Made by a program: the position numbers and the translations under genes. Positions 3,906 to 20,073 of a DNA stretch of 20,073 bases are shown piece by piece. Each line of letters begins with the position of its first letter. The first letter of the stretch is position 1. The notes under the pieces were generated by a model. The model saw only the letters and a list, made by a program, of their open reading frames with translations, did no database searches and was not told where the DNA came from. Origin of the DNA: a virus; the IMG/VR virus record IMGVR_UViG_3300031841_001169, positions 1 through 20,073 of that record. One strand, 5' to 3'.

Positions 3906-6900
3906 TTAGCCAAGTCTTTGTAGTCTCTGAGCAATATCTATATTAGCTGGAGATCCACCTAATAAACTTTGGCTTACAGGAGCTTGCCCAGGGGCTGAAA
4001 TAGCTGGAGTTACATCTGGAAGGTCTCCAAGATCTGCAGACAATCTAGGCTGGGTTGCCTCTCTGCCGATATTCATTAATTCAGATGCGCTTTTTTCCAA
4101 CAGCCCTCTAATGCTTTGTCCCTCTTCGGTTTCTTCTAAAGCTCTTAAGCCTTCTGTAGCCTCCTCTCCCGCTTCTAACGTTTGTAAATAAACATCTCTA
4201 AAACCGCCACGTGTTATGGTTTGCGCAAAATAATCAAGAACTTGAACTATAGAATTTTTATCCTGTTTGGCTAATGCAGAAACTATTCTTGGATTAGAGA
4301 ATACTTGTTTATAAAAACCAAGAGCTGCAACCATCGGCCAAAGCGCTACGTTAAATACATTTAGAGCTAAGGTACCAGCTACAAGAGTACCAGCTCCACC
4401 TGTACCAGTCTCTCCTGCTGTAGCCCTAAGAGTTCTAGAAAAGTTTTTCAAAGATAATGTTAAGTCTTTTCCAAACATCGCTTCTAAAGTATCGTCGCCA
4501 TACATCGTTAAAGCTCTTTCTAAATTACCTGGTTTAAATATATCGTTTAGTTTAGTGCTACCTGTTTGAATACTATCTCTAAGTATTTGATCTAAGGCTT
4601 GTTCTTGTATATCAGTAAAAGCATCAGCAGTAACTGCATTTTTAACTCTTAATATATCTTCTGAGGATTTTGGTCTAAATACTATTTTTACAACTTCTTC
4701 TGGAGATGCTGAATCTATACGATCAAAAATTCTAGCCTTTTGCATGTCTGCAGCCTCAGCACTTACTTTTGCTTTGTTTTTTAGAGAATCTATAAATCTT
4801 ACAAAACTTTGAGGAGCTCCGGTTGTAGCCTCTAGTTGAGGTATTCTTCCAGATAATTCTGCAGCAACTGTTTCTAATTCTTTTACAGTTAAGTTTGGTT
4901 TTAATTTTACAAAATCATCCATCGCTTGAAAAAACGCTGTAGATCTATTTCCTAGCAAGGGTTCTAGTTTTTGTCTATCTTTTAAAACCATGTTTGCAAA
5001 TCTTGCTGGGTTTATAATTCCAGTTATTGGATCTGCAACAGCTGCTTTAGATTTTTCTTGCATGTATCTTCTTAAGAGTTTTTGTCTTGCAGGAAGCCTT
5101 TGAGCCTCTGGTAAAGATTGGATAATAGCTTTCATGTCTCCAGCTTTATTAATTCCAAATACTGCGTTGTATACATCATCACTATCAACTTTAGTATCGC
5201 TCATTATTTTTCGGACAACAGCGTTATCAAAAGGTAAATGATTTTTATAATACTTAGCATTTTCTTTTTTCAAATCGTTAATAATCGCAGCTAGTTTCTT
5301 TTTATCAGTCTCGGTTCCGCCTATTTTATGAAGATTGTTTGGAAGTTCGTTTATTTTTTCGTCAATTAAGTCATATACTTTTCTAATTAAATCTCCTTGA
5401 GATCCTCCATCTAAATTGTTAGCCATTTCTTGAGATCTTACATCTTTTCTTATTTTTATTAATTCATTTAAAGTAACTTTATCGTTTCTTTTTTCTAAGC
5501 CATTTACCAAAGCTGTAATAATTTTAAAGTTAGCGTCATCTGCTCTTGCCGCTATAAGAAAATCCTCATCTAAAGTTTCTTTTATATATCTGTTTATGTC
5601 TGACATGTCTATTTTAAAATCAGGATTAAACTTTTTAATTCTTTCTTCTATAGCTCCATATGCTTGTCTATGATTATCTTGTATGGTTTTGTAAGATTCT
5701 TTGATTGTGGCTTGTACATTTTCTCCAAGTTCTTTTTTGCTTTGTAATATTGCAGAGCTAAAACCTCCGGTCTCAGAAGCAAGATCATTCATCAGTTTAT
5801 TTAATTCGTTAGTTACATCTTGGTCTGCTTTTTCTAAAGCAGTTTTCTTAGCTTTTAGTTCTGATATAACCTTTGAATCTGTTTCTGAAAATATAGAGTA
5901 TTCATCTAGCTTAGCTTTTTGATCAGCTATTTTTCTTTTTAACTGATTTAACGCGGCCATATTGTAAGCAATAATTCCTTGCTCTCTTCTAACTTTACCA
6001 AAAATAGTTTCACCTGCTGCCTGCATTCTTCCTGGTATTTCTCTTCCTAAAGCCCTTTGCGTTGGTATGGCTTTAAATCCTAATTCTTTTACTTCTCCTC
6101 TTTTTACAGCTTGGTTTATTTCTTTTTCTGTAGCTGTTCTACCAAGTTTTTTATCCAGTCTAATTACGTCATCCATACTTAAGCCTTTAGACGTAATATA
6201 AAAATCTCTTATAGTTTCTGTTGGAGCTTTTCTACCAAAAAAAGCGCCAAGAGCTTTTGCTCCTAGCTCTCCTAATCCTTGGCCGGTAACGCCAATAGCA
6301 AATTCTGTTTTTAGTAAATTAGCTAATTCTCCAGCATCTTTATCTTGGAATCCTTGTAATACGTCTACTGATTCCTCAGCAGCCTTACCACCCGCTGCTC
6401 CGATACCAGATGCTATAGATCTGCTTACAGTAGGGGCTTTGAATAAATATTGAATGCCTTTCAATAATCTTCCTTGAGGACTAAGAGCTGCAATCGCTCC
6501 AGCGATAGGACCAATAGCTCCAGCAAAATCTGCGTAGTCTCCAGCGCTACCAAACTTGTTTTCATCTATAACAATATTTTTATCAGACTGTTGATCTTCA
6601 TCCAGCAATCCTTTTTCAATAAGAACTCTTTGTCCTTCTGGAGTGATAGCAAAATCACCTTTAGTTGTTCTAGTAAATCCTGTACTGTCAACGTAAGCTC
6701 TTAAAACGTTTTCTTTTTCTTCTCTCTTTTCCTGTCTTGCTAAAGCTTGTCTTAATCTTGGAACGTTAATACCTGTTTCGTAATCAAAGTATATAGAATC
6801 AAAAAGAGGCGACGCCTCTTTCTTTGCAATTTCTGATTTAAGTATCCTTACTGCTTCTTCTCTTGAATTAGCTTCTACCGGTACTGTAAGATCATCCGTT

Positions 6901-6923
6901 AATCTGAATCTGTAGGTTTTCAT
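3906..6923 (-). CDS. Large internal virion / DNA-ejection-type protein (1005 aa)
   Basis: The last gene of the virion operon. The N-terminal ~110 residues (MKTYRFRLTDDLTVPVEA, then a REEAVRILK helix) look like a small folded domain with a charged helix. Glycine/alanine-rich hydrophobic stretches at about 130-150 and 205-230 could enter membranes. A coiled coil spans about 325-380. Another likely membrane-active segment is at 845-873 (GTLVAGTLALNVFNVALWPM). The C-terminus carries a proline-rich tail and an SLLGGSPANIDIAQRLQ ending. Size, position and mix of coil plus membrane-active helices suit a T7 gp16-like or P22 ejection protein that crosses the cell envelope during DNA entry; no transglycosylase motif is evident. 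The start overlaps the previous stop as ATGA, without a good ribosome site, so translation is probably coupled. Confidence 0.6.
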   Translation of the reverse strand: MKTYRFRLTDDLTVPVEANSREEAVRILKSEIAKKEASPLFDSIYFDYETGINVPRLRQALARQEKREEKENVLRAYVDSTGFTRTTKGDFAITPEGQRVLIEKGLLDEDQQSDKNIVIDENKFGSAGDYADFAGAIGPIAGAIAALSPQGRLLKGIQYLFKAPTVSRSIASGIGAAGGKAAEESVDVLQGFQDKDAGELANLLKTEFAIGVTGQGLGELGAKALGAFFGRKAPTETIRDFYITSKGLSMDDVIRLDKKLGRTATEKEINQAVKRGEVKELGFKAIPTQRALGREIPGRMQAAGETIFGKVRREQGIIAYNMAALNQLKRKIADQKAKLDEYSIFSETDSKVISELKAKKTALEKADQDVTNELNKLMNDLASETGGFSSAILQSKKELGENVQATIKESYKTIQDNHRQAYGAIEERIKKFNPDFKIDMSDINRYIKETLDEDFLIAARADDANFKIITALVNGLEKRNDKVTLNELIKIRKDVRSQEMANNLDGGSQGDLIRKVYDLIDEKINELPNNLHKIGGTETDKKKLAAIINDLKKENAKYYKNHLPFDNAVVRKIMSDTKVDSDDVYNAVFGINKAGDMKAIIQSLPEAQRLPARQKLLRRYMQEKSKAAVADPITGIINPARFANMVLKDRQKLEPLLGNRSTAFFQAMDDFVKLKPNLTVKELETVAAELSGRIPQLEATTGAPQSFVRFIDSLKNKAKVSAEAADMQKARIFDRIDSASPEEVVKIVFRPKSSEDILRVKNAVTADAFTDIQEQALDQILRDSIQTGSTKLNDIFKPGNLERALTMYGDDTLEAMFGKDLTLSLKNFSRTLRATAGETGTGGAGTLVAGTLALNVFNVALWPMVAALGFYKQVFSNPRIVSALAKQDKNSIVQVLDYFAQTITRGGFRDVYLQTLEAGEEATEGLRALEETEEGQSIRGLLEKSASELMNIGREATQPRLSADLGDLPDVTPAISAPGQAPVSQSLLGGSPANIDIAQRLQRLG

Positions 6924-8995
6924 TTTTTAAATTGATCTCTAAAATCTATAATCTCTTCTCCAAGATCAACTCCCTCATCTTCTAACAAAGAAATTCCTTT
7001 TTTAATAACGTCAAAAGCATTTAATCCAGTTAAATCCATTCCAGCTAAATTTAAAGCATATCTTACTGAATTAATCTCATCTAACTGAGTCTGCATATTG
7101 TTTCTAATTCTTTTATCAACTGTTCGTAACGATAGCAAATTAGATGCAGCTGGAGCACCTAATACAATTGCAGTAGAAAGATCTTGAACGATTTGTCTGT
7201 CAAAGTTAGATATGGTTCTTCCTGACTCACCCAATATCTCTCTAATATTTGCTTGGCTGATTAAAGTAGAAAGCTTTCTTGCTTGTTCAGTTGAACTTAA
7301 TTTTTTAAAGTCTTCAATAGATCCTGTTTTATCTTGACCTAAAGCAACAGCCGCTTTTTCAAGAATATCTTTTGTAAAGCTGCTTAATGAAGTTGGATTT
7401 TTATTTTTTAAAACGTTTTCTAATTGCTTTATGAGAGCAATCGTTTCTGTTGAATTTTGAAAACTTTGAGCTGCTGTATTTGCTGTATTATTTAAATCAT
7501 ATACTTTCTTAGCGTCGGTAAGATCCATTTTACCAGCATCCATTTTATCAATTAATTCTAGTTGTAATTCTTGATCAAATTTTTGTTGTTCTAAATCTCT
7601 CAGCCCTCTTTCTTCAGCTGCAAGCGCTGCGCCTTTCGCCAAGCCAGATGCCATATCTTCTGAAGTAGCTAAACCTTTTGATAAGTTGGCAACAAATCTT
7701 ATAAAGTTTTTGTTAGCGAATGCATTTCCTGCTCTTTCAAGATCTCCTGCCGGAACTACACCTGCGGCTTGACTTGTACCAGCTTGAGCATCTGCATCTT
7801 TATCAGCGTCTACATCTGTATCTTTATCTAGATCTTCATCAGGAATAATTGTTTCTTCCAAACCTTCTTGTTTTAAAAATTCTTTTACTTCTTCTTTTTT
7901 AGTATCCTCAGTTGCATCTCCAATTGCTTTATCTGATACAGCAGAGGTTTTTTCTAAATCTTCTAATTGTTTTGATAAATCTGCAGTTTCTGGTGGGATA
8001 TATGAAACTCCAGGTATTTGTAATAATCTTGCTAACCCAATATCTCTTTTAGAGATTTCATCTCCAGGAATAAAATCTTGGAATTTTTCTCTTCCTCTTT
8101 GACCTCCTGCTAACTCACCCGCAAATCCAGCAATCCCCTCAAGGATAGGTCTTCCTATATTAGCAAGTCCTCTTCCGGCTTCTTGAGCTCCGTATCCAAA
8201 ATCTCCCGGCCCAGCAAAAGTGCCTCTTCTTTCTTCAAAGCTGCCACCTATCCTTTCGCTTATTCTAAAAGGTTCGTCCATTCTTGCAAAATTTTCTAAG
8301 GAGGCTGCAACATCCGGACTAAACTCAAAATCTCTGTTATTAATTATTGAATATAAAGTAGTACCTCCTATTCTTCCTTGCTCGACTTGCTCTGAAAAAT
8401 TAGAAGGTAATTGATATACTGAGTTTGTAACTTTATCTCTTATTTGATTCGGCTGTAAGTCTGAAGATGCAAAGCCAGATGTTGGTTCTTCTGTTACCTC
8501 AACAACATCTAACGAAGCCAAACTTGGATCTGGCATTTCAATAGAAGTTTCTGGTAAAGCTAAATATTCTTTAGCTTCTTCGTCTGTTAAATTGAAGTTT
8601 ACTTTTAATCCAAGGATTTGGTTATCTGTTCCTAAATCTTTAGTAGCTTCTATATATTTTCTGATTTGATCTAATTCTATATTTTTGGGTAATTCTACCT
8701 TTGGAGCTTGCCTTTGAACTACTTTAGTTTCTGGAATTTCTTGAAATACATTTATATTACCAGTAAATTCATCTGCGCCAGGACTGGCAATTGCTGGATT
8801 AACGCTGCCGCCCAAACCACTTACCGTTGTTTCTATTTCTGAAAAAGAAACATTTGGAATCATTTCTTTTATTTCGGCGGCGTTGTAGCCTTGAGATACG
8901 TAGTATTGAATTAACTTTGGTATATCAATTCTAGGCTTAGGTCCTGCATTTACCACGTCGCCTTGAGCAAACATTTTTCTTTGTAGTATATTCAT
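6920..8995 (-). CDS. Acidic internal virion-type protein (691 aa)
   Basis: A large acidic protein. The start MNILQRKMFAQGDVVNAG could alternatively be at Met8, since many marine phage proteins begin MFAxG; the upstream ATG sits one base after the previous stop. Residues 250-330 are glycine-rich (GPGDFGYGAQEAGRGLANIG). A linker at about 366-402 is very acidic with Asp/Lys alternation (DLDKDTDVDADKDAD). The C-terminal ~270 residues are helical, with SKGLATSEDMASGLAKGAA and GESGRTISNFDRQIVQDLS, motifs I associate with ejection or tail-interior proteins of marine phages (from memory). It lies between two other ejection-type proteins and is probably part of the same internal complex. No enzymatic motif is seen. 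Confidence 0.55.
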   Translation of the reverse strand: MNILQRKMFAQGDVVNAGPKPRIDIPKLIQYYVSQGYNAAEIKEMIPNVSFSEIETTVSGLGGSVNPAIASPGADEFTGNINVFQEIPETKVVQRQAPKVELPKNIELDQIRKYIEATKDLGTDNQILGLKVNFNLTDEEAKEYLALPETSIEMPDPSLASLDVVEVTEEPTSGFASSDLQPNQIRDKVTNSVYQLPSNFSEQVEQGRIGGTTLYSIINNRDFEFSPDVAASLENFARMDEPFRISERIGGSFEERRGTFAGPGDFGYGAQEAGRGLANIGRPILEGIAGFAGELAGGQRGREKFQDFIPGDEISKRDIGLARLLQIPGVSYIPPETADLSKQLEDLEKTSAVSDKAIGDATEDTKKEEVKEFLKQEGLEETIIPDEDLDKDTDVDADKDADAQAGTSQAAGVVPAGDLERAGNAFANKNFIRFVANLSKGLATSEDMASGLAKGAALAAEERGLRDLEQQKFDQELQLELIDKMDAGKMDLTDAKKVYDLNNTANTAAQSFQNSTETIALIKQLENVLKNKNPTSLSSFTKDILEKAAVALGQDKTGSIEDFKKLSSTEQARKLSTLISQANIREILGESGRTISNFDRQIVQDLSTAIVLGAPAASNLLSLRTVDKRIRNNMQTQLDEINSVRYALNLAGMDLTGLNAFDVIKKGISLLEDEGVDLGEEIIDFRDQFKK

Positions 8996-8996
8996 A

Positions 8997-10268
8997 TTAG
9001 AAGCCTGGTAGTCCTGTACTTCCTCCTGGTAAAGTTGTTGGGAAATTAAAGCCTCCTAAACCTCCTGTTGAAAATCCTGGAGTTCCTGGATATCCACCAG
9101 ATCCTGGAAGCGTTGTCGGAAAATTATATCCACCAGGATTATATCCACCAGTTGTTCCCGGATATCCGCCTGCACCAGGCAGGGTTGTTGGGAAGCTCAT
9201 GCCAGGCATAGTTGTTGGCTGGGTTGTCGGAGCTGTCGTTGGAGTTGCTGTAGGAGCTGCTGTCGGAGTTGCTGCCGTAGCTGTTCCAGCTTGGCTTGGT
9301 TGATAAAGACTTGCATATGCACCCAGTCCAGCAGCCAAACCTTGCTGTAAAGGATCTACAGGCATTCCGTATTGACTTTGAACTTGAGTTTGACCACTTT
9401 GATATTGAGGAGCAAAACCTTGAACGAATTGTAAAGCTCTCATCGGATCTTGTCGTAAAGCTTCTTGATATTCGTATTGTCTTCCAAGCTGAGTTTCTTT
9501 TAATTCTCTTGGAACAGCTCCTAATCCCATCAACTCTTGTCTTTCTGATTGTCCAAGTCTTTGAAGAGTTGCTCCTAAGCCTCCAAGCTCAGAACCATAT
9601 CCTGATAATTCTCTTCCCAATCCTCTTTCAAATTCTGCAGCTCTTTGTAAAGCGCCTCTACCGAACTCTGATTCTCTTTGAGCTGCGCCTAAAGCTTGAG
9701 TATACCCACCTGATCTAATTCTTGATAAAGCTTCTCCAAGACCTCTACCTAAAGCGGCCTGTCTTTCCCCAGCAGTTAATCTAGCTCTTGAACCAAAAGC
9801 TGATTGACCACCTGCTTGAATGTCTCTTGCTCTTTGCGCTATATCTTGCTGAGCGCCACCTTTCATCACATCTTGAATGGTTTGTTGTACCACTTGTTCT
9901 TCAAATGGATCGTAAAATCTTCCTATATCTCTTGGTTGAAAGCCTCTTAAAGTACCTCTGGATAAACCTCTAGCTGTTCCTAAAGTCCCCATACCGCCAA
10001 GTATCGCTTGTTCTTGAGCTTTTAAATATGGTTCGTATCCTCCAATACCGCCGTAAGCTCTTTGTATTGCAGCAGTTTCTAAAGGAGAAAGCCCAGCAGT
10101 ACGTCTCATTGTTGGGCCAACATCTAAATACCTTTGCGCAGCCCCTCTAGCTTGTTGAATTAATCCTGCATAATCAGGAGATCCAAAATATAATTCTCTT
10201 ACAAAAGGATCAGATATTACCTGTCTTCTGTCTACTTGTTTTAATACTGGACTAATAGGTTCTGCCAT
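8997..10268 (-). CDS. Gly/Gln/Arg-rich virion protein with PTTLPG repeats (423 aa)
   Basis: Residues 1-320 are rich in Gly, Gln, Arg and Ala and likely helical (YDPFEEQVVQQTIQDVMKGG, then SAFGSRARLTAGERQAALG), a composition shared by internal virion proteins of marine podoviruses. From about 326 the protein changes to an Ala/Pro/Thr linker (TPTAAPTATPTTAP) and then a Gly/Pro/Tyr tail. The tail has three FPTTLPG units (359-365, 383-389, 409-415), each followed by GGYPGT-like sequence. The tail resembles surface-exposed or collagen-like low-complexity segments. The start overlaps the preceding stop as TAATG. A structural role is inferred from composition and neighbours. Confidence 0.55.
   Translation of the reverse strand: MAEPISPVLKQVDRRQVISDPFVRELYFGSPDYAGLIQQARGAAQRYLDVGPTMRRTAGLSPLETAAIQRAYGGIGGYEPYLKAQEQAILGGMGTLGTARGLSRGTLRGFQPRDIGRFYDPFEEQVVQQTIQDVMKGGAQQDIAQRARDIQAGGQSAFGSRARLTAGERQAALGRGLGEALSRIRSGGYTQALGAAQRESEFGRGALQRAAEFERGLGRELSGYGSELGGLGATLQRLGQSERQELMGLGAVPRELKETQLGRQYEYQEALRQDPMRALQFVQGFAPQYQSGQTQVQSQYGMPVDPLQQGLAAGLGAYASLYQPSQAGTATAATPTAAPTATPTTAPTTQPTTMPGMSFPTTLPGAGGYPGTTGGYNPGGYNFPTTLPGSGGYPGTPGFSTGGLGGFNFPTTLPGGSTGLPGF
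9000..9293 (-). repeat. Coding low-complexity repeats: Pro/Thr linker and three FPTTLPG units
   Basis: This segment encodes residues 326-422 of the 423-aa virion protein. It starts with alternating TPT/APT/PTT triplets and continues with three copies of FPTTLPG spaced 24 and 26 residues apart, two followed by GGYPGT. The nucleotide copies are close (AAAGTTGTTGGGAAA, AACGTTGTCGGAAAA and AGGGTTGTTGGGAAG on the plus strand), consistent with recent internal duplication. Confidence 0.8.
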
Positions 10269-11749
10269 TATATTGCCTCAAAAATATCCATTAATTGACG
10301 CATATTTTCTACGCCTTTTTTACGAGATGGTTTACCGCCTGATACTAATTCTATACCTGATTTATTTTTCTTTACGTTAAATGCTCCAGCACCTCTGGTT
10401 GCTTTTGCAGTCATCACGTATTCGCCGTCGCTTAACATCGCAGGTATATCATCTGAAGTACCTGTACCTGGGCCTGCTGATTCGCCACCATCTCTCATAT
10501 CTAATTCAGCGACTCCTCCCATATTGAAATATTGTCTTGTAGAAGCTAAACCGCCTCCAGCAAACTCTAAAGCTTTTGGAGCTGGTCCTAAACCAAACTC
10601 ACCTCTAGTTCCGCCTGTTCCTAATTCTTTTGCTAACTGATACCTACCAAGCTCATCCATCATTACAGCAGGTGTTGCGGCTAATCCGCCTTTTCTTTCT
10701 TTAGCAGCGTCGTATGCAGCTTTACCAAGAAGACCAGCCATCGCAGCTGCTCCCATATTGCCGCCAAACATTCCTCCGCCTGGCTGTTGATATCCGCCTC
10801 CAAATATACTTCCTAAACCACCCTCTCTTACAGGATCAGAAGTCTTGCCTTTAATAATGTCTTCAATAAGACCAATTCTGCTTTGGCCAGGAGTTCCTCC
10901 AAAAAGTCCTCCGCCCCTTACAGGGTCAGATGTTTTTCCTTTTAAAATATCTTCAATTATTCCTATACGACTTTGACCGGGAGTTCCTCCAAAAAGTCCT
11001 GAAGGCTGAGATGTAATAACATTTCCAGATTGATCTAAATAACCTTCAGCAATCATTTGTTCGGTTGTTAATTGTCTACCATCTGGTAATTGATATAAAT
11101 CTGTAGGGTTTCCTGCTTCATCTAAAACTTGCGTAGGCTGTTGGCCCATTCCTCCGCCAAATAGGCTGCCTATACCTCTTCTTATACCTGGTCCAATAGT
11201 TCCTCCAAATATGCCTTTAGTTCCTTCTGCAGGATTGAAATAGCTTCCTATACCACTTTTAAGTCTTTGAAATATATTTCCTTTGGCAGCATCTGCTGCT
11301 CCAGTAGCTGCGCTACCAGCACCTCCAAACATTTTGCCGCCAGCAAAACTTAAAGCGCCTCCAAGTAAGGCTTCTTTTGTAGATAATCCAGATGCTTTAC
11401 CCGCTACTGCTGTTAAAGCAGCTTTAGCTACCGGTCCAACTCCTGGTATAAAATTTATTGCAATAGGTGCAACTTTCTTAACAACTTTCTTTACAGACTT
11501 AAATGTTTTCTTTAGCCAACCAAACTCTGGCATTCCTGTAATAGGATTAATAGACATACCTGCGCCAACAGTATATTCATCCGGAGATAGGCCTACAGCC
11601 TTCATCTCAGCTTCTATACGAGCCCTTGTTTCTGGAGAGATAATAGGTGGTACGACCATTTCGCCTTGGGCGACGTGAGCCATATATTGGTCTTCATCTC
11701 TACCTAGTTTTGCTAATCCTTGTCCGCTATTGTCTATTTTATTCATCAT
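10268..11749 (-). CDS. Glycine-rich tail/ejection-type protein with AMLSDGEYVM motif (493 aa)
   Basis: The N-terminus contains MAHVAQGEMVVPPIISPETR, followed by a basic amphipathic segment (KKTFKSVKKVVKKVAP, 80-95) and a hydrophobic stretch up to about 118. The centre is glycine-rich and contains two tandem copies of a 30-residue unit (GLFGGTPGQSRIGIIEDILK and onward). The C-terminus (426-455) carries GPGTGTSDDIPAMLSDGEYV with MTAKATRG, a motif widespread in marine phage tail or internal proteins. The basic-amphipathic plus hydrophobic pattern suggests membrane interaction during DNA delivery. Two adjacent ATGs (11749, 11746) are possible starts; AAGG lies about 9 bases upstream. The function is not established for this motif family as far as I know. 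Confidence 0.55.
   Translation of the reverse strand: MMNKIDNSGQGLAKLGRDEDQYMAHVAQGEMVVPPIISPETRARIEAEMKAVGLSPDEYTVGAGMSINPITGMPEFGWLKKTFKSVKKVVKKVAPIAINFIPGVGPVAKAALTAVAGKASGLSTKEALLGGALSFAGGKMFGGAGSAATGAADAAKGNIFQRLKSGIGSYFNPAEGTKGIFGGTIGPGIRRGIGSLFGGGMGQQPTQVLDEAGNPTDLYQLPDGRQLTTEQMIAEGYLDQSGNVITSQPSGLFGGTPGQSRIGIIEDILKGKTSDPVRGGGLFGGTPGQSRIGLIEDIIKGKTSDPVREGGLGSIFGGGYQQPGGGMFGGNMGAAAMAGLLGKAAYDAAKERKGGLAATPAVMMDELGRYQLAKELGTGGTRGEFGLGPAPKALEFAGGGLASTRQYFNMGGVAELDMRDGGESAGPGTGTSDDIPAMLSDGEYVMTAKATRGAGAFNVKKNKSGIELVSGGKPSRKKGVENMRQLMDIFEAI
10827..11000 (-). repeat. Two tandem copies of a 90-base (30-aa) coding repeat
   Basis: Copies start near 10827 and 10917 (plus-strand coordinates) and encode GLFGGTPGQSRIG(I/L)IEDI(L/I)K followed by GKTSDPVR. 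The proteins are nearly identical while the DNA differs at many silent positions, for example AAGTCTTGCC against ATGTTTTTCC. This suggests an old duplication kept by selection on the protein. Confidence 0.85.
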
Positions 11750-11761
11750 ACTATTGTAACC

Positions 11762-12499
11762 TTAATTTTCTTTACTGTTAATTGATTCTTCCTCAGAATT
11801 AAGCCAAAAAACCAATAAATATCTATCGCCTTCCTCAACTGCTAAACCTCGATGCATGTGAGTATAGCTAGGAAATATTAGACCGCTACCTGTCGGTAAA
11901 GGCTCTACGATTCCCCTGTTTAAAAATTCTGTTCCGCCACCTTTGTAATCGCCTGTATTTAAGGGTACTACAATACTAACATCTGAACTGGCGTCGTGGT
12001 GCCAAGCACCTTGTTTTTTATTCTTTAAATTATAATTTGCTATCTGTATATTGCCACCTGTAACGTGGCGATTCCATATCGTTAATAAGATTGGATTAAT
12101 AAAAGATTGAACTACGTGTAGCAAAGAGTTGTATAACTCTGGACATTTTTCACTTAAAACTATCTCTGGTATTTGTCTAAGCTCATCTTCTTCTGGATTC
12201 GGGCAAAATGAAAAATGTTCTTGCATATTGTTTATTTCATCTAACAATATTTGACAAAACTTTTCTGAAAACAAAGGAACGGTATATACCTCTTTTAAAG
12301 GCTCTGATATAACGCTTGTTAAAGGATTATCTTCTGGATTACTAACACCCATACTTTTGTAAAAATCTACGATATTTGGAAGAGATGCTTTGGCTTTTTC
12401 TAAAGTTTTTTCGTTTAAAAACCAATCAGACGGATATGCGAGTAATAGATTTTTAAGCTCGTATTGTTGTTCTTCTAAATATATTTTTTCTGCTAGCAT
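11762..12499 (-). CDS. 2-oxoglutarate/Fe(II)-dependent oxygenase (prolyl-hydroxylase-like)
   Basis: A 245-aa protein. The C-terminal ~110 residues show a complete 2OG-Fe(II) dioxygenase core: W-H167-H-D169 (the HxD metal pair) in AWHHDASSDVSIVVPL, the GGGTEFL strand, the distal metal ligand H216 in THMHRG, and R226 in EGDRYLLVFWL as the 2OG-binding arginine. The N-terminal 100 residues contain no known motif and may select the substrate. Such enzymes hydroxylate protein side chains, commonly Pro, Lys or Asn, or nucleobases. The gene sits among virion genes, between the small fibre-like protein and the 493-aa protein, so a phage structural protein is a plausible substrate; this is inference. 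The start ATG at 12499 has a GGA ribosome site about 7 bases upstream. Confidence 0.85.
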   Translation of the reverse strand: MLAEKIYLEEQQYELKNLLLAYPSDWFLNEKTLEKAKASLPNIVDFYKSMGVSNPEDNPLTSVISEPLKEVYTVPLFSEKFCQILLDEINNMQEHFSFCPNPEEDELRQIPEIVLSEKCPELYNSLLHVVQSFINPILLTIWNRHVTGGNIQIANYNLKNKKQGAWHHDASSDVSIVVPLNTGDYKGGGTEFLNRGIVEPLPTGSGLIFPSYTHMHRGLAVEEGDRYLLVFWLNSEEESINSKEN

Positions 12500-12512
12500 G
12501 TTGTTCCATATG

Positions 12513-12824
12513 TTAAGGCGTTGAAACTGTTACGCTTCCTAACGCTGATGTAGCAGAAACTCCTGTTAAGTAAGTACGATGGCTCGTTAAATCAATAAAC
12601 TCAGTCCCGTCAAATACTTGTAGCGTTTCTGTTGTTGTATTAAATATTAGCGTGCCTTGATTAAAATTCAAAGAATCACGTTCAGTAGTCGACAATTGTA
12701 TCGTATTATCTGGATCTACTGATCCTAAGTTTATCTCTAAAATCCTTACAAGTCTATTAAAAACAGAAGCTGGCACATATTCGCCTGTAGCAATCGGTAG
12801 TTGAGTTTGTAATAGTTTGCTCAT
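12513..12824 (-). CDS. Small tail-fibre-like / virion accessory protein (103 aa)
   Basis: A 103-aa protein with a helical first third (PASVFNRLVRILEINLG) and a beta-rich end containing LIFNTTTETLQVFDGTEFID. This NTTTxxLQVFDGTxF pattern is familiar from trimeric fibre or spike proteins, where it precedes the receptor-binding region. Here it ends soon after, so it may be a head-tail or fibre adaptor. The ATG overlaps the stop of the 623-aa tail gene as ATGA. Family assignment is weak. Confidence 0.45.
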   Translation of the reverse strand: MSKLLQTQLPIATGEYVPASVFNRLVRILEINLGSVDPDNTIQLSTTERDSLNFNQGTLIFNTTTETLQVFDGTEFIDLTSHRTYLTGVSATSALGSVTVSTP

Positions 12825-14692
12825 CTTCTACCGTCAGGTTTAATATCTATTCTGGTAGCCCCCAATCTCCATCCAATACCTAAGTTACCGTTGTTATCAG
12901 CGTCGTCGTTTGACTCAAAGCGCAATACCATTTGTCTTGCTCTGCCTCTAACATACGCTTGTTGCGTTGTTTCGCTTATTTCGTTTGTTGAGTTAGTTGT
13001 TAGAGAATCTCCAGGAAAGTTTCTAGTTTTAACAACAATATTAATTGAGCCGTTATTTTGGTTTTCTATAAATTTAAAGTCAGGAATAATTCTTCGTATA
13101 AAAGTAAACTGATCGCCCTCGCCTATATCAAAGTCAGAGCTTTCTATAAAAACGTTAGTCATCGGCGATCCGTCGTCGTCAAAGCCTGTTTCTTGTTCGT
13201 ATAAATATCCGCCGTTTACTGCTCTTGGGAAGTTTTCTATACCAGCATCCAACCAAGCTGTTCTGCTTAACTGGCCATACGTCCAAAGGTTTTCCATATA
13301 GTTATAAATAACATATCTGTCTATCTCGTCGCTGCTAGAAGAACAATAAAACCAACCTACTTCGTTTTTATCAGCAATAGTAAAAGCGTTTATTTTAAAT
13401 GACTGTACTAAGTTAATATCGTTGAACACGTAATTATGAACGTTACAAGGTATGGTTTGAACGCTACCGTTATAGCTATAAAAATTATTATAACCCATCC
13501 AGTAAATAGCTGAAGGCGCTGTTACTGCGGCTTTGGGACCAACCAATCCTGTTCCTTCGTTTACTAGGTTTACTGCAAAAGTAAATGGCGGTCCAACAAA
13601 CTGCATACTATATAAAGCAGTATCAGTCCATACAAGTATCTCTTGCCTTGATTTAACAGCTCCAATAATAGATGAGCCAGATGATAATCGTAACGAACCG
13701 GCAGTATTAGTAATTAAAGGCTCAAACTGTAAATTATCTTCTTGATCAGAAAAAGCTATAAGCATCGGATCTACTGTACCGGTTCTAGCTGTACCTGTAC
13801 CATTTAAAGGATCTGCGCCCAATACAATCAAATGTCTATCTTTTTCAGAAGTAATAACTTGTAAGCCTACGGTTGGAACTAGGTTAGCTCCTGATAGGCT
13901 GGACATATCTACAGCTCTAGTATCGGTACCATTATTTTCTGTCCATTGATAAATACCGCCGCCTCTAACATTTATTATTAGGTTTTCGCCAAAGTGATCA
14001 TGCGTCCAAAGTCTAAGCTGGTTTGTTACAGATAAGGCTGTAGCAGAGCCAAAGGTTCCTTCACCCCAGCCGTTTAAACCCCAGCCAGTACCAGGAACAT
14101 ATACATCCAGCCCTACGTTTATTTGATAAGTTCCTACGGTACTTGAGCCTCCATTTCCTGTATCAGATGCGTTAGCTGTTACGGTATCTCCGTTAGTATC
14201 TTTTGCTGTAATTGTATAGGTATTAGTTGTTACTGATACTATTTGATACTCTTGGTTTAAAACATCTGCTGTTATATTGCCACCTAAGCTTACTGCTCCG
14301 CTAAAAGTAACAAAATCATTCATTACTGCTCCATGCGCAGTATCACTTACAGTAATAGTTGAAGATCCATCTGTTGCAGCAAAAGTAACATCTCCTGCTG
14401 CTGTAGTAGTTCTTATAGGAGTAACGTCGTTAAAGTTAGAACCTTCTTCTATATAATATTTAAAAGTAGTACCAAGTCCTAAATACTTGGTTCCCTCTAA
14501 AGCAACCCAAGGGTGTAAAGCTCTGCAAGTTCCAAGAAAACTATTAGGAGTATTTTTACTCCATCCGCCAAATTTTTCTGGATATCCTTTTCTAAAACGA
14601 ACTAAGTTGACGTCAAACCAACCGCCCTCGTTACTATAATCGGTACCTTCTCTGTTGATACCTGGGTTAAATACTGCTTTCTGTAAGGTCAT
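12821..14692 (-). CDS. Tail hub/nozzle-like protein (P22 gp10 / T7 gp12 type)
   Basis: A 623-aa protein starting MTLQKAVFNPGINREGTDYS, with VRFRKGYPEKFGGW at 31-44 and LHPWVALEGTKYLGLGTT at 59-76. This opening resembles the packaged-DNA stabilisation / tail nozzle family of short-tailed phages. Residues about 110-165 hold an inserted beta domain (TITVSDTAHGAVMNDFVTFS, ending in VTTNTYTI), common in marine phage tail proteins. The remaining part is beta-propeller-like (LRLWTHDHFGENLIINVRGG, RLSSGSSIIGAVKSRQEILV). It would close the tail and hold packaged DNA. Its first 26 bases overlap the end of the upstream nuclease gene. The family call comes from remembered patterns, not a search. Confidence 0.6.
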   Translation of the reverse strand: MTLQKAVFNPGINREGTDYSNEGGWFDVNLVRFRKGYPEKFGGWSKNTPNSFLGTCRALHPWVALEGTKYLGLGTTFKYYIEEGSNFNDVTPIRTTTAAGDVTFAATDGSSTITVSDTAHGAVMNDFVTFSGAVSLGGNITADVLNQEYQIVSVTTNTYTITAKDTNGDTVTANASDTGNGGSSTVGTYQINVGLDVYVPGTGWGLNGWGEGTFGSATALSVTNQLRLWTHDHFGENLIINVRGGGIYQWTENNGTDTRAVDMSSLSGANLVPTVGLQVITSEKDRHLIVLGADPLNGTGTARTGTVDPMLIAFSDQEDNLQFEPLITNTAGSLRLSSGSSIIGAVKSRQEILVWTDTALYSMQFVGPPFTFAVNLVNEGTGLVGPKAAVTAPSAIYWMGYNNFYSYNGSVQTIPCNVHNYVFNDINLVQSFKINAFTIADKNEVGWFYCSSSSDEIDRYVIYNYMENLWTYGQLSRTAWLDAGIENFPRAVNGGYLYEQETGFDDDGSPMTNVFIESSDFDIGEGDQFTFIRRIIPDFKFIENQNNGSINIVVKTRNFPGDSLTTNSTNEISETTQQAYVRGRARQMVLRFESNDDADNNGNLGIGWRLGATRIDIKPDGRR

Positions 14693-16298: not shown

Positions 16299-18035
16299 TT
16301 ATATAGTATAAACCTTTAACGGTTTCTTTTTTCCTTTTACGTATATTTTTTTATGAAAAACACCATTTTGCGTTTTCTTAATTGTAGCCTCGCCAATTAG
16401 TATGTCAACACCAGCTTCTTTTGTTGCAGACTCAAGACGTGCTGCTGTATTTACCGCGTCACCTATAGCCGAATAATCAAATCTAGTATCACTACCCATA
16501 TTGCCAATAACTGCATATCCGGTATTTACGCCAATACCAATTTCAACACCGAGATCGGCCATTTTAATTTTATCTTGTATTTCTTTTGCGCAAAGAACCG
16601 CAGCCATTTCATGGTCAGGTATATCTATAGGTGCGTTAAATATTGCCATCATCGCATCACCAATATATTTATCTACCATACCATCATAAAACTTAACTGT
16701 ATCTGCTTGAATCGTTAAAGCCTTATTCATAATCTTGGTTACTTCTTCTGGTTCTAGTTTTTCTGATAAAGATGTAAAACCTCTAACGTCTGTAAATAAA
16801 AATGTGCAATATTTTTTCTCGCCTCCAAGTTTTAGTAACTCAGGATTGTCTTGTAATTGCTTCACTTGTCTTGGATCCAGATAATGTTCAAACTGTTTTT
16901 TAATCTCTTGACGTAGTTTATATTGTTTTTTGTAGTTTATATAGAAAGCAACGGTAGAAGTTATGATTTGAGATATAAAAGTCCATGAAAAATCCAATAA
17001 AATGCCCTTCTGAATGCTAAAAACGCCTGAGAAGCCCGTGGTGAAAAGCAAAATTACAGCAATACTTAGACCCTTAACCACACCAAGATAATTGATTGTG
17101 AGCCACGTCAGGGTGACAAAAATTCCCAAAATCAAAATTTCGGCTACTAAATGCCATTCTGGTATTCTTGGAGAGCTTTGGATGAGAATTGACTCAGATA
17201 ATGCTGCTTGAATTTTATGTGGCTCTAATAATCCTGCTGGAGTTGCAACTTGAGGCATAATTCCAGGAGCAGTTATTCCAAGAAAAACAAACTTACCTTC
17301 TACATCCATTTCTTGTAAATTGGTTTCTGGAGTTTTTACCCAACTAATCCACTTGCGGCCAAGACTATCAGTTTTAACCGGGGGTAATCCTTGAACAGTA
17401 ATTTCTTCAATACCAAGTTCGTTGGTTTTAATAATATAAGTTTTTGCACCTACTAAACTTTTTAATACTTCTGTACCAAAGGAACTTACGTATCCGTCTG
17501 GGGTTCTAAACAATAAAGGGATTCTTCTAACAAGGTTATCAAGATCGGTGGGTGCAGCAGATATACCTTCTTGTATATAGTCGTTTCTAAGGTTGTTGGT
17601 ATTTTGTACCACACCCTTTGCTAGCATACCACCAACATCAGGACCTTTGATGACCGTACCAACTGTTTTTGGGTATATTTTATTTGGGTATTCAAATGAA
17701 GCTAAAATAGATGTACCATATTTTAAAGACTCTGCAAAAAATCTATCTCCCCCAAACCTATCAGGATGTGGAAAACTAACAACCCAACCTACACCTAACG
17801 CACCTTTTTCTATTAGTTCTGCATGTATATTACCAAGTTTTTGTCTGGGTATAGGCCAACCGCCTTCTGCGTCTATATCTTCTTCGGTAATATTTAAAAT
17901 AGTAAAGTAGCCAGATGGTTCTGGCGTTTGAACAAAAGCGTCAAATATTTTAAGTTTTAATATTTCGGTAGGCGTACTTTGAAATATTAAAGGTAATCCC
18001 AGTATTATAAGTATTGGTAATAATAATTTATTCAT
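16299..18035 (-). CDS. CHASE2-domain class III adenylate cyclase
   Basis: A 578-aa inner-membrane sensor enzyme predicted to make cAMP from ATP. One N-terminal membrane helix (3-18) is followed by a CHASE2 periplasmic sensor (about 28-290; typical GGWPIPRQKLGNI and GKFVFLGITAPG). Three membrane helices follow near 297-318, 321-340 and 350-367, then a linker and the cyclase domain from about 405. The cyclase keeps both metal aspartates (D416 in FTDVRGFT, D460 in YIGDAMMA), the adenine-specifying pair K456 and D520, and the transition-state pair N529 and R533 (VNTAARLES). By these residues it should use ATP rather than GTP. It starts 8 bases after the FecR gene, without a clear ribosome site. 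Its stop abuts the ATG of the lysis accessory gene. Bacterial CHASE2-cyclases often neighbour FecR-domain genes (from memory). I know of no described phage case. Confidence 0.92.
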   Translation of the reverse strand: MNKLLLPILIILGLPLIFQSTPTEILKLKIFDAFVQTPEPSGYFTILNITEEDIDAEGGWPIPRQKLGNIHAELIEKGALGVGWVVSFPHPDRFGGDRFFAESLKYGTSILASFEYPNKIYPKTVGTVIKGPDVGGMLAKGVVQNTNNLRNDYIQEGISAAPTDLDNLVRRIPLLFRTPDGYVSSFGTEVLKSLVGAKTYIIKTNELGIEEITVQGLPPVKTDSLGRKWISWVKTPETNLQEMDVEGKFVFLGITAPGIMPQVATPAGLLEPHKIQAALSESILIQSSPRIPEWHLVAEILILGIFVTLTWLTINYLGVVKGLSIAVILLFTTGFSGVFSIQKGILLDFSWTFISQIITSTVAFYINYKKQYKLRQEIKKQFEHYLDPRQVKQLQDNPELLKLGGEKKYCTFLFTDVRGFTSLSEKLEPEEVTKIMNKALTIQADTVKFYDGMVDKYIGDAMMAIFNAPIDIPDHEMAAVLCAKEIQDKIKMADLGVEIGIGVNTGYAVIGNMGSDTRFDYSAIGDAVNTAARLESATKEAGVDILIGEATIKKTQNGVFHKKIYVKGKKKPLKVYTI

Positions 18036-18043
18036 ATTATTTA

Positions 18044-19234
18044 TTAATTACTTTGGGTTATTTTTATTGTACTACCCGTTCCTCCGTTTACTTTTATTAT
18101 TCTAGATACGCCATCTTGAATAAAAATAACAGTATAGCTACCAGATGAATCTATATCTACTCTAGCAGTATCGCTAACACTTCTCATCAAAGTAAGTATT
18201 TCTCCGGTTACGTAAGATGTAATCTGCGTATTTAAGTCCTGGCCTAAATTAGTACCAACTAAATTTATAGATGTAGCATCTTGGGCCAACTGATCTTCTT
18301 GTTTTATTTCTTGTAAAGCATCTATAACATCTAGTAAATCTTCTAAAAAGTTTACGTCAAGATAATTTATATCTAACTCGGTAAATTCTAGTTCGTCTTC
18401 TTTAAAAAAATCTTCTTCTAAGTAATCTATATCTAAGTCGTCAAAGTCTAAAATGTTTTTCTTTTGCGTTTGTACTGTTTCTTCTAAAACGGCTTCTTCT
18501 TTAGGCGGATTTACGATTAGCATATTGTCAATAATATCTAACGTAAGATCTAAAATAACAGGAGAGCTTGGAGATTTTTCAAATACGTCTACGGTTGTAG
18601 CTTCGTAAGGCTTGTTTAAAGTAACAGTTCCCATCGCAGTTGTTACCAATATTTCGCCGCTAGCGTTACCAAATTCATCTGGTAAAAGTATTAACAAACT
18701 ACGGCCTGTTTCATCTACAGTAACTGTAAAGTCTGTTCCTCTGATTGCTATATTAGCGGTAGGAGTCTTAAGGTCTATGTTAGACTTATCTATCTTATTT
18801 AAAGAACCAGTAATAAATCTAGCCGTACCCAAACCAAAGGTGATAGCCATTTTAGATTTACTAGGATTTGGGTCAAAGATATATTCATCTATTGTTAGTT
18901 GAGAATGTTCCGTTAATTTTACTTTTGAGTCATCTAAAAACGTAATAGCCATACGACCATTCGTTGTTACAGCCTCATCGTTTTGTTGGATGTCAAAATC
19001 CAACTCGGCATTATACGGTTTTTCTCTTAAAACTCTAGCAGAACCTGAGAGTTCAGATATGTTTCCTACATCAACAGCTGGTTGTTGTTCCGCCGTCGTT
19101 TTGAACGACACAAATAGTACCGTTAGAACCAGTAGAGTCAATTCGTAACCAGTCTGCTGCAAGCGTTGACGATTGGGTGATATTAAATGTTCTGCTGTTA
19201 CCTGTTTGGTCGAGGTAGAAATATCCGCCTGCAT
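18044..19234 (-). CDS. FecR-domain periplasmic protein with acidic repeat linker
   Basis: A hydrophobic signal/anchor (ELTLLVLTVLFVSF, 31-44) precedes a FecR domain at about 55-175: GNISELSGSARVLR, then RMAITFLDDSKVKLTEHSQL, and the family signature TPTANIAIRGTDFTVTV. A linker at 261-302 is acidic and contains two 20-residue units (FDDLDIDYLEEDFF and FTELDINYLDVNFL). The C-terminus (about 325-396) is beta-rich and ends GTGSTIKITQSN. FecR domains sit in the periplasm and relay envelope signals; bacterial versions often pair with CHASE2-cyclases. The start is uncertain. ATG 19234 (AGGA about 7 bases upstream) overlaps the curlin-like gene by 164 bases in another frame. TTG at 19141 or GTG at 19111 would shorten the N-terminus. 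All choices place the hydrophobic segment within, or cut it at, the overlap. Confidence 0.8.
   Translation of the reverse strand: MQADISTSTKQVTAEHLISPNRQRLQQTGYELTLLVLTVLFVSFKTTAEQQPAVDVGNISELSGSARVLREKPYNAELDFDIQQNDEAVTTNGRMAITFLDDSKVKLTEHSQLTIDEYIFDPNPSKSKMAITFGLGTARFITGSLNKIDKSNIDLKTPTANIAIRGTDFTVTVDETGRSLLILLPDEFGNASGEILVTTAMGTVTLNKPYEATTVDVFEKSPSSPVILDLTLDIIDNMLIVNPPKEEAVLEETVQTQKKNILDFDDLDIDYLEEDFFKEDELEFTELDINYLDVNFLEDLLDVIDALQEIKQEDQLAQDATSINLVGTNLGQDLNTQITSYVTGEILTLMRSVSDTARVDIDSSGSYTVIFIQDGVSRIIKVNGGTGSTIKITQSN
18332..18454 (-). repeat. Acidic 20-residue tandem repeat within the FecR protein
   Basis: This stretch encodes residues 261-301 of the FecR-domain protein. FDDLDIDYLEEDFF (264-277) and FTELDINYLDVNFL (284-297) are two copies in register 20 residues apart, with a core LDI(D/N)YL. 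The segment holds Asp/Glu plus large hydrophobics and almost no basic residue. It could bind Ca2+ or a partner protein. Confidence 0.75.
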
Positions 19235-19805
19235 ATCCGCTTCCTGTAAAGTTTATTGTATTGCTATCTCCGTCTACATCAACATAATTAGTAGCACCAT
19301 CATAGTTTATATCAAAATCAAATGTGTTGCTGTCGCCGTTAATTATCCAGTCTAAATCAAGATTTGAAGCTAAAGCACTTGTACCCACATCTAACGTAAA
19401 TGTGTTAGAGCTTCCAGTAACATCAACATTGAAATCAGAACTGTCTATTCCATAAGTATCTGTTGGATCTCCTTGTATAGTAAAAGTATTACTATCGCCG
19501 TCAAACTCAAAAAAACCAGTAATATTATCGCCTAGGATGTCACCCAAGAATTTATTAGTATTACCTATTTGGTTTATATCTAGCGTTAAACTCAAACCGT
19601 CTAAATCTAGAGCGGTAAGCGTACCTGCGACAGAGTTAAGACCACCTATAATATTAGATGAGCCTAATTGCTCTAAATCTATATTTGCTGTTGCTCCGGA
19701 CTGCTCAACATATATTTCGTTATCTGCAGAATAAGCAGATAATCCAAAAAAAGTTAGTCCTAATATACCGTAGTAACTTACTACTCCTATATCATTTTTA
19801 TTCAT
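19071..19805 (-). CDS. Curlin-like extracellular repeat protein (putative amyloid fibre subunit)
   Basis: A 244-aa secreted protein. A signal peptide spans 1-26/27 (VVSYYGILGLTFFGLSAYSA, cleavage before DNEI). The first part has curlin-type QxGxxN units: VEQSGATAN, LEQLGSSN and INQIGNTN. From residue 102 a related unit GDSNTF recurs (DGDSNTF 102, TGSSNTF 130, NGDSNTF 156, DGDSNTI 178, TGNSRTF 201) at 22-28 residue spacing. These Asn-ladder repeats fit a stacked beta-solenoid/amyloid. Two cysteines (C232, C244) flank the end (GTICVVQNDGGTTTSC). It would leave the cell through the CsgG pore. The ATG overlaps the csgG stop by 8 bases, with GGA upstream, so the two are probably coupled. The 3' 164 bases overlap the FecR ORF. 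The curlin relationship rests on repeat pattern and csgG linkage. Confidence 0.75.
   Translation of the reverse strand: MNKNDIGVVSYYGILGLTFFGLSAYSADNEIYVEQSGATANIDLEQLGSSNIIGGLNSVAGTLTALDLDGLSLTLDINQIGNTNKFLGDILGDNITGFFEFDGDSNTFTIQGDPTDTYGIDSSDFNVDVTGSSNTFTLDVGTSALASNLDLDWIINGDSNTFDFDINYDGATNYVDVDGDSNTINFTGSGYAGGYFYLDQTGNSRTFNITQSSTLAADWLRIDSTGSNGTICVVQNDGGTTTSC
19185..19502 (-). repeat. Five GDSNTF-type coding repeats
   Basis: On the plus strand, variants of AAATGTGTTGCTGTCGCC recur at about 19485-19502, 19400-19416, 19319-19337, 19257-19272 and 19186-19202, encoding (G)(D/S/N)S(N/R)T(F/I). Spacing is 66-84 bases. They form the repeating body of the curlin-like protein. Confidence 0.75.
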
Positions 19806-20073
19806 ATATCTTCCAATATCCCTTTGTTGTTCCTTCTTTTATTGTTTGTAATACAGCTGTTTCTATAGCTGTTTGTAAGGCAATATTAATAGATTCGTTT
19901 CTAACTAAACCGTTCTCTATTTCAACAAGCTCTGTTGAATCGGTTATAAACCTAAACACATCTTGATCAATAGATGCACTTAATATTGTTTTGGTTACGA
20001 GAACCTCTAGCAGCACTTTGCCGGTACTGACGGAAACTGTTCGTAAGGATATGGTAACGGTATCTTGTTTGTA
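19798..20073 (-). CDS. csgG: CsgG-like curli secretion channel, C-terminal part (runs off the right edge)
   Basis: The minus strand is open from the window edge to the TAA at 19798 and gives 91 residues. They align by eye with the end of E. coli CsgG: TVTISLRTVSVSTGKVL against its AVNLRVVNVSTGEIL region, TKTILS, then VFRFI, NESINIALQTAIETAV against its NEPVMLCLMSAIETGV, and EGTTKGYW against DGIDRGLW. CsgG is the nonameric outer-membrane lipoprotein pore of type VIII secretion. The part seen corresponds to the end of the transmembrane-hairpin and periplasmic domain. It lacks the charged extension that E. coli CsgG has after the final Trp. The N-terminus and lipobox lie beyond the window. Confidence 0.9.
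   Translation of the reverse strand, partial: YKQDTVTISLRTVSVSTGKVLLEVLVTKTILSASIDQDVFRFITDSTELVEIENGLVRNESINIALQTAIETAVLQTIKEGTTKGYWKIYE

Follow-up and report, generated by a model that had tools for sequence, protein, structure and literature searches.

Gene organization of the locus

The window analyzed here is a virus record of 20,073 bases, which may be a fragment. Its minus strand is a single long gene run, starting with the end of a CsgG gene, a curlin-like open reading frame (ORF), FecR, a CHASE2-adenylate cyclase, two small ORFs, a lysozyme and a PDDEXK_5 protein. These are followed by a stabilization-type tail protein, a 103 aa protein, a 2OG-Fe(II) oxygenase, a 493 aa protein, a 423 aa repeat protein and two large proteins (Table 1). 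The original prediction placed the repeat protein two genes from the oxygenase in a virion operon. The gene order (oxygenase, 493 aa protein, 423 aa repeat protein) was found as predicted, and it is homology that points to a virion operon. The C-terminus of the 493 aa protein matches tape-measure families (best match 3.6e-9) and contains a DDIPAMLSDGEYVM motif within the matching part, and the 423 aa protein has a weak match to the DNA-ejection family phrog_4287 (6.9e-5). The oxygenase and the repeat protein are thus presumed to sit among virion genes.

Table 1. Features of the gene run on the minus strand of the window (positions in the 20,073-base record).
Feature	Position	Strand	Characteristics
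1005 aa protein	3906..6923	-	corresponds in position to the 'DNA transfer protein' of phage DSL-LC04
691 aa protein, unknown family, same gene run	6920..8995	-	ejection protein presumed from position alone (cf. DSL-LC04)
423 aa protein, Pro/Thr/Gly C-terminal tail	8997..10268	-	three FPTTLPG; weak DNA ejection family match
Presumed internal virion/ejection protein, 493 aa	10268..11749	-	class A N-terminus; Lys-rich segment following PEFG; mosaic central part
Class A N-terminal domain (residues 1-77) of the 493 aa protein	11519..11749	-	IDNSG...GEMVVPP...MSINPITGxPEFG
LH-like 2OG-Fe(II) oxygenase, 245 aa	11762..12499	-	iron ligands H167/D169/H216 and 2OG ligand R226 by motif and alignment
103 aa protein, left neighbour of the oxygenase in the window	12513..12824	-	weak tail-fibre match
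Stabilization/tail-type protein	12821..14692	-	phrog_3287 'virion structural protein', 1.4e-65; flanking gene used for the tree

The order from the tail protein over the 103 aa protein, the oxygenase and the 493 aa protein to the 423 aa protein is kept, as far as the contigs reach, among the best 80 of 514 oxygenase relatives in IMG/VR. A few of these 80 contain an insert ahead of the oxygenase. The 103 aa gene is common to oxygenase-bearing and oxygenase-free relatives.

Upstream of the lysis genes, positions 16299-20073 (minus strand) hold the CsgG end (Pfam CsgG, 4.6e-15), the curlin-like repeat ORF, whose label is a reading from sequence with no significant Pfam match, FecR and the CHASE2-adenylate cyclase. 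This order is also kept in relatives (e.g., loci L003, L013, L032, L039, L043, L045, and L053). Such a cassette is known in kind, since a similar one (CsgF, CsgG, CsgA/B, FecR, adenylate cyclase) has been reported for HTVC023P-type and myovirus pelagiphages in the parts of PMC9599517 consulted.

The oxygenase has an intact active site and resembles lysyl hydroxylases

The oxygenase had been predicted to possess the complete HxD...H...R set of residues, and we found all four, H167 (codon 11999-12001), D169 (11993-11995), H216 (11852-11854), and R226 (11822-11824), to be present and invariant in an alignment of 29 sequences. The HxD...H triad and the 2OG-binding arginine lie on a double-stranded beta-helix in the predicted model, as is characteristic of the 2OG-Fe(II) oxygenase superfamily. 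The protein matches phrog_61, '2OG-Fe(II) oxygenase' (2.3e-29), and secondly phrog_2297 (4e-13), for which the label DNA endonuclease seems doubtful. NCBIfam yields a sub-threshold dioxygenase match only, and in PADLOC only the generic '2OG' model is matched (9.4e-9, labelled CRISPR-associated). A search of bacterial genomes with two peptide patterns gave 143 pattern matches, none of which was a confirmed oxygenase relative.

Among 140 distinct full-length relatives, HxD, H, and R are intact in 139. The sole exception (L314:2294-2932) is altered from shortly before the distal histidine onward; it looks frame-shifted, which could be an assembly error. The median dN/dS is 0.12 (interquartile range 0.09-0.17) over 1,501 non-independent pairs, taken in list order from the start of the qualifying ones. 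As read from these alignments, the gene has kept an intact active site and has evolved under purifying selection.

Several comparisons assign the enzyme to the lysyl hydroxylase (PLOD/LH) type. Enzymes of this type are Fe-dependent dimers of LH domains. The only Pfam family matched by the oxygenase of the window is OGFOD2-like (PF25238), at 31.6 bits against a cut-off of 31 and over residues 53-95 only, and this match is found in all 29 aligned members at E 0.01. When the profile of the 29 members was searched against all solved chains, the only significant matches were human LH3 (5.5e-13) and mimivirus L230 (3e-10 and 6.3e-9). The next oxygenase was PiuC (0.62), and prolyl hydroxylases were absent from the 16 matches that the profile gave up to E 10. 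An AlphaFold2 monomer model (mean pLDDT 79.7) gave a similar picture. Foldseek matched it to LH3 at 1.5e-13 and to L230 at 6.6e-12, compared with 4.4e-6 for the best prolyl enzyme, and the best match in BFVD was a Megavirus procollagen-lysine dioxygenase (5.3e-13). In VIA-align, L230 reached a Z of 21.6 (rmsd 2.1 A over 183 residues) and LH3 a Z of 20.9 (2.5 A over 194 residues); the next family was OGFOD1 (Z 13.7), and the best entry titled prolyl-4-hydroxylase had a Z of 13.3. Sequence profile and predicted fold thus place the oxygenase with the lysyl hydroxylases, well above other 2OG enzymes. A prolyl hydroxylase identity was rejected, since LH3 and L230 are far ahead in all three comparisons (profile, Foldseek, and VIA-align). 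An LH-like fold, itself taken from a model, does not prove that lysine is the substrate.

The proline-rich repeats do not follow the oxygenase

The original prediction proposed that the phage may hydroxylate prolines in the C-terminal tail of the 423 aa protein, with three FPTTLPG/GGYPGT repeats. We confirmed three copies of FPTTLPG (9174-9194, 9102-9122, and 9024-9044), while GGYPGT occurs twice and PTTMPG once. At the DNA level there are three 29-nt copies, 72-100% alike and spaced by 78 and 72 nt. Among orthologues of this protein, taken from the best 80 of 514 oxygenase relatives, 39 of 53 reach the C-terminus, and only L004 and L002, the latter almost a copy of the window, have FPTTLPG repeats. 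Similarly, PTTLPG was found besides the window only in + strand ORFs of two contigs among the loci examined, namely L002 (= L086/L152/L465) and L004 (= L154).

The oxygenase is therefore widespread among its relatives without a Pro-rich repeat protein, which had been named beforehand as an outcome speaking against the proposal, and the expected co-occurrence of the two is absent, the repeats being confined to two lineages among the loci examined. The looser pattern PTTxPG is present in five of 84 distinct complete orthologues at oxygenase-bearing loci and in none of 30 at oxygenase-free loci. Proline makes up a median of 5% of the last 100 residues of the repeat protein with the oxygenase versus 14.5% without it (Mann-Whitney p 6e-4, relatedness ignored). 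Oxygenase-free sisters also retain the protein: L113 is 94.9% identical to L072 at the DNA level over L072 10972-18593, spanning the repeat-protein gene (12048-13049), and L104 is 92.4% identical to L066 over L066 7470-9508, again spanning this gene (7995-9440). The Pro-repeat tail was rejected as the substrate on these three grounds (repeats in two lineages, lower proline with the oxygenase, and retention in oxygenase-free sisters). Despite the X-Pro-Gly-rich tail that the lineage of the window carries two genes off, hydroxylation of its FPTTLPG/GGYPGT prolines is very improbable, as the enzyme is also of the lysyl type. What survives of the wider idea of a phage hydroxylating its own structural protein is an apparently active, protein-hydroxylase-type enzyme among presumed virion genes, for which a virion substrate is possible; the FPTTLPG prolines as its target find no support.

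The oxygenase tracks the N-terminal class of the 493 aa protein

A search with the tail protein retrieved oxygenase-free relatives, where the 103 aa gene lies immediately next to the homologue of the 493 aa protein, the two being 17 or 40 bases apart in 28 loci. Oxygenase-bearing phages share an N-terminus of about 77 residues, termed class A here, with the pattern IDNSG...GEMVVPP...MSINPITGxPEFG or close variants, and the oxygenase-free phages have different N-terminal types (e.g., B1 and B2). Further scans started from the N-terminus, from a divergent oxygenase and from divergent tail proteins. From each of the eight viral scans in all, at most the best 80 loci were taken (for example of 514 in the first oxygenase search, and of 419, 467, and at least 589 in others).

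The N-terminus was recognised in 343 of the 481 loci with the flanking tail-protein gene. Within the best 80 loci per scan, and with overlapping loci from one contig included in the counts, class A is accompanied by an oxygenase directly upstream in 266 of 266 loci (263 and three GE-to-NE variants), compared with none of the 77 loci of other types (56 B1, nine other, eight B2, two C, and two D). Counted by distinct sequence, there are 169 class A N-termini with the oxygenase versus 56 of other types without it. Among the 138 loci with no recognised N-terminus, 25 are cut right after the oxygenase, three are class A and 43 are too short; the remaining 67 have neither an oxygenase nor a recognised domain, although at least 1.5 kb follows.

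Apparent incongruences were traced individually. Four apparent class A loci without an oxygenase do possess it, abutting the N-terminus, and three loci of 'other' type with an oxygenase belong to class A but carry NE in place of GE. Three additional oxygenase loci, with MSINPVSG, fit the coupling to class A. Two second oxygenase-like ORFs (L043:216-764 and L045:1-336) are weak (scores 36 and 34) and located elsewhere, far upstream of the main oxygenase, and were discarded as instances of an oxygenase without its N-terminal partner.

In a tree of the flanking tail protein, thinned within classes from 322 to 97 rows (69 with and 28 without the oxygenase), the presence of the oxygenase changes 15 times. 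Supported branches provide 13 independent pairs, and the N-terminal class follows the oxygenase in all 13 (p 2.4e-4). Among the best 80 loci per scan, oxygenase and class A thus co-occur strictly in independent lineages. In a sample of 25 class A rows, the class A N-termini group together (support 82), so the pairing may have arisen once. Two control traits on the same tree, the presence of PDDEXK_5 and an insert following the 103 aa gene, show three changes each (76 and 95 of the 97 rows scored, respectively), so that few uncoupled losses would be expected anyway. Perhaps about three uncoupled losses of the oxygenase would be expected and none was seen, which is suggestive only. Mirror-tree distances do not single out the N-terminus: over 155 loci, the correlation with the oxygenase is 0.81 for the N-terminus against 0.84 for the neighbour on the left, the difference ranging from -0.06 to +0.01 in the bootstrap, with partial correlations given the tail protein of 0.73 and 0.64, respectively.

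Residues 1-77 contain no invariant lysine. Directly after PEFG, Lys80 is a lysine in 119 of 120 distinct N-terminal rows with the oxygenase (window included), while the 47 oxygenase-free rows have serine (35) or lysine (12) at this position. Lys80 is only a lead as the putative modified site, because the contrast is largely a difference between classes and because classes C and D retain the lysine without an oxygenase. The class A N-terminus gave no match in the annotated-phage collection. Past PEFG, the 493 aa protein is a mosaic common to the oxygenase-bearing and oxygenase-free sets. In the 60 residues that follow the N-terminal domain, distances show little correlation with those of neighbouring genes (r 0.26-0.35), and the C-terminus is conserved. 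The part encoded by 10268-11518, together with its homologues, looks like that of a recombination-prone virion protein.

Oxygenase and N-terminal domain are replaced together between sister phages

The gap between the oxygenase and the N-terminus ranges from -10 to +67 bases in 266 of 266 loci. On its left side the oxygenase is separated by more than 250 bases in 34 of 263 loci, with up to 2.7 kb of other genes. These encode helical proteins, or a peptidase-like protein and small lysine-rich proteins (labels read from the sequence). Very lysine/arginine-rich small proteins of the GKGPKGDWVDIGAPKKKG type occupy the slot between the gene of about 103-110 aa and the 493 aa homologue, left of the oxygenase in L170-L173 and L201, where a peptidase-like gene is present too, and in the oxygenase-free L384 and L413.

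The extent of the exchanged tract is best visible in closely related pairs with and without the oxygenase. On the left, L072 and L113 share 93.7% identity as far as base 10005, which lies 17 bases inside the oxygenase ORF (start 9989); identity (94.9%) resumes from 10972, just past the N-terminal domain, which ends near 10944-10950. Exactly the oxygenase and the N-terminus form the sole replaced stretch over 12.4 kb. L069 and L124 are 94.3% identical up to 3975 (ORF start 3959) and resume at 4897, close to where the domain ends (4917), with only 161 bases following. Both edges agree in the pairs L066/L104 and L064/L207, which differ additionally in the central part of the 493 aa gene. L193/L374 are too diverged for placing the right edge, and L136/L450 have no sequence right of the tract. 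Class A and oxygenase-free blocks have no DNA-level match inside the replaced tract. As both parts lie within about 1 kb and the alleles share no DNA match, recombination in the flanks alone could keep oxygenase and N-terminus together.

Interpretation of the coupling

One reading of these data, which we favour only tentatively, is that the LH-like oxygenase and the class A N-terminus form an enzyme-target pair in an exchangeable cassette. The unit of exchange would be a single cassette made up of the oxygenase and the first ~77 residues encoded by the next gene. The oxygenase would be an active LH-like 2OG-Fe(II) enzyme, hydroxylating a residue in the class A N-terminal domain or in the adjoining lysine-rich segment. 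This modification would precede packaging of the 493 aa protein, probably an internal or ejected virion protein, and phages with another N-terminal type would have no need of the enzyme. The fullest version is a more doubtful proposition still, namely that in marine podophage-like viruses a collagen-LH-like enzyme hydroxylates the N-terminal region of an ejected protein, with enzyme and substrate domain swapped as a cassette and other alleles dispensing with the enzyme. If true, this would constitute an allele-specific self-modification system of a bacteriophage virion.

An equally plausible account is pure linkage, in which the enzyme acts on a host protein or metabolite and merely shares a non-homologous allelic block with class A, the block being swapped whole by recombination in the flanks. 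This account fits a replaced tract lacking any DNA match between alleles, the single group formed by the class A N-termini, and the unspecific mirror-tree result; two nearby traits changing only three times each make the absence of uncoupled losses weak evidence against it, and in three phages examined distant relatives of the enzyme lie away from virion genes. On the other hand, pure linkage has to accommodate zero uncoupled cases in 343 readable loci, even though the space left of the oxygenase does admit other genes. We give the enzyme-substrate and linkage readings equal weight because the association is strict, yet the tract is short and without an allelic DNA match, the distances are unspecific and the controls are suggestive only.

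That the enzyme hydroxylates a nucleic acid (DNA or RNA) or a small molecule, in repair, base modification, or nitrogen signalling, is unlikely. Such substrates have been proposed for other phage 2OG oxygenases (PMC3037559 and PMC11288001, in the parts consulted), distant homologues adjoin replication genes in phages Itty13 and Kurepalu-1, and the questionable endonuclease label of phrog_2297 would point the same way, but among solved structures the enzyme stands by far the closest to lysyl hydroxylases acting on proteins.

Marine phages repeatedly carry 2OG oxygenases, for whose substrates the literature, as far as consulted, offers only guesses. Genome comparison here yields one candidate partner, for which sister phages with and without the enzyme offer a built-in control. 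Should the pair be enzyme and substrate, a phage enzyme would gain its target and a hydroxylated bacteriophage virion protein would be demonstrated. Should linkage be the explanation, the data would still oppose the Pro-repeat idea and group the enzyme with the lysyl hydroxylases.

Comparison with known systems

In the open-access literature searched, at the level of titles and abstract openings, no report of hydroxylation of a phage virion protein was found, and the consulted parts of PMC9599517, PMC3037559, and PMC11288001 name no virion partner for marine-phage 2OG oxygenases. Cyanophage 2OG oxygenases have been linked to DNA repair or 2OG/nitrogen signalling (PMC3037559, in part) and those of CRP-810-type phages, likewise regarded as auxiliary, to DNA repair (PMC11288001, in part). 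A statement in the consulted part of PMC3368898, concerning collagen-like prophage proteins, has prolyl-hydroxylase enzymes lacking in bacteria and viruses. HTVC023P-type pelagiphages encode several 2OG oxygenases, which the consulted text of PMC9599517 treats as auxiliary genes, often near ferrochelatases, with 'a range of molecules' as substrates.

The HTVC023P-type pelagiphages and CRP-810-type roseophages are likewise marine and encode 2OG-Fe(II) oxygenases. In HTVC023P and HTVC027P, these lie near a gene of the same flanking family as in the window. The HTVC023P-type oxygenases are non-orthologous, and the regions of HTVC023P, HTVC027P, and DSL-LC04 gave no tblastn match to the enzyme of the window at 1e-3. 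In HTVC023P (L085, 4032-8982), a putative ferrochelatase and three genes annotated as 2OG-Fe(II) oxygenases are clustered upstream of the tail protein, and these oxygenases gave no match to the profile of the window enzyme at 1e-5.

Annotated-phage matches to the oxygenase comprise 193 records, 187 of which are Pseudomonas phages. The nearest relatives are found in phages phi-2, Itty13, and Kurepalu-1 (about 29-39% identity among the matches listed). In the three phages examined, these homologues are located among early/replication genes, in a collection without class A N-termini.

Prolyl hydroxylases (PBCV-1 vCPH, P. putida P4H, PHD2) have the double-stranded beta-helix superfamily in common with the enzyme of the window, at the more distant Foldseek and VIA-align values given above. 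Mimivirus L230 and human LH3 (PLOD3) are closer. The enzyme of the window differs from both in being a stand-alone protein of 245 aa without the glycosyltransferase part, with about 22% identity, a partner that is not demonstrably collagen-like and lysine as a putative substrate residue, and it resembles both in profile, predicted fold and the placement of HxD...H...R.
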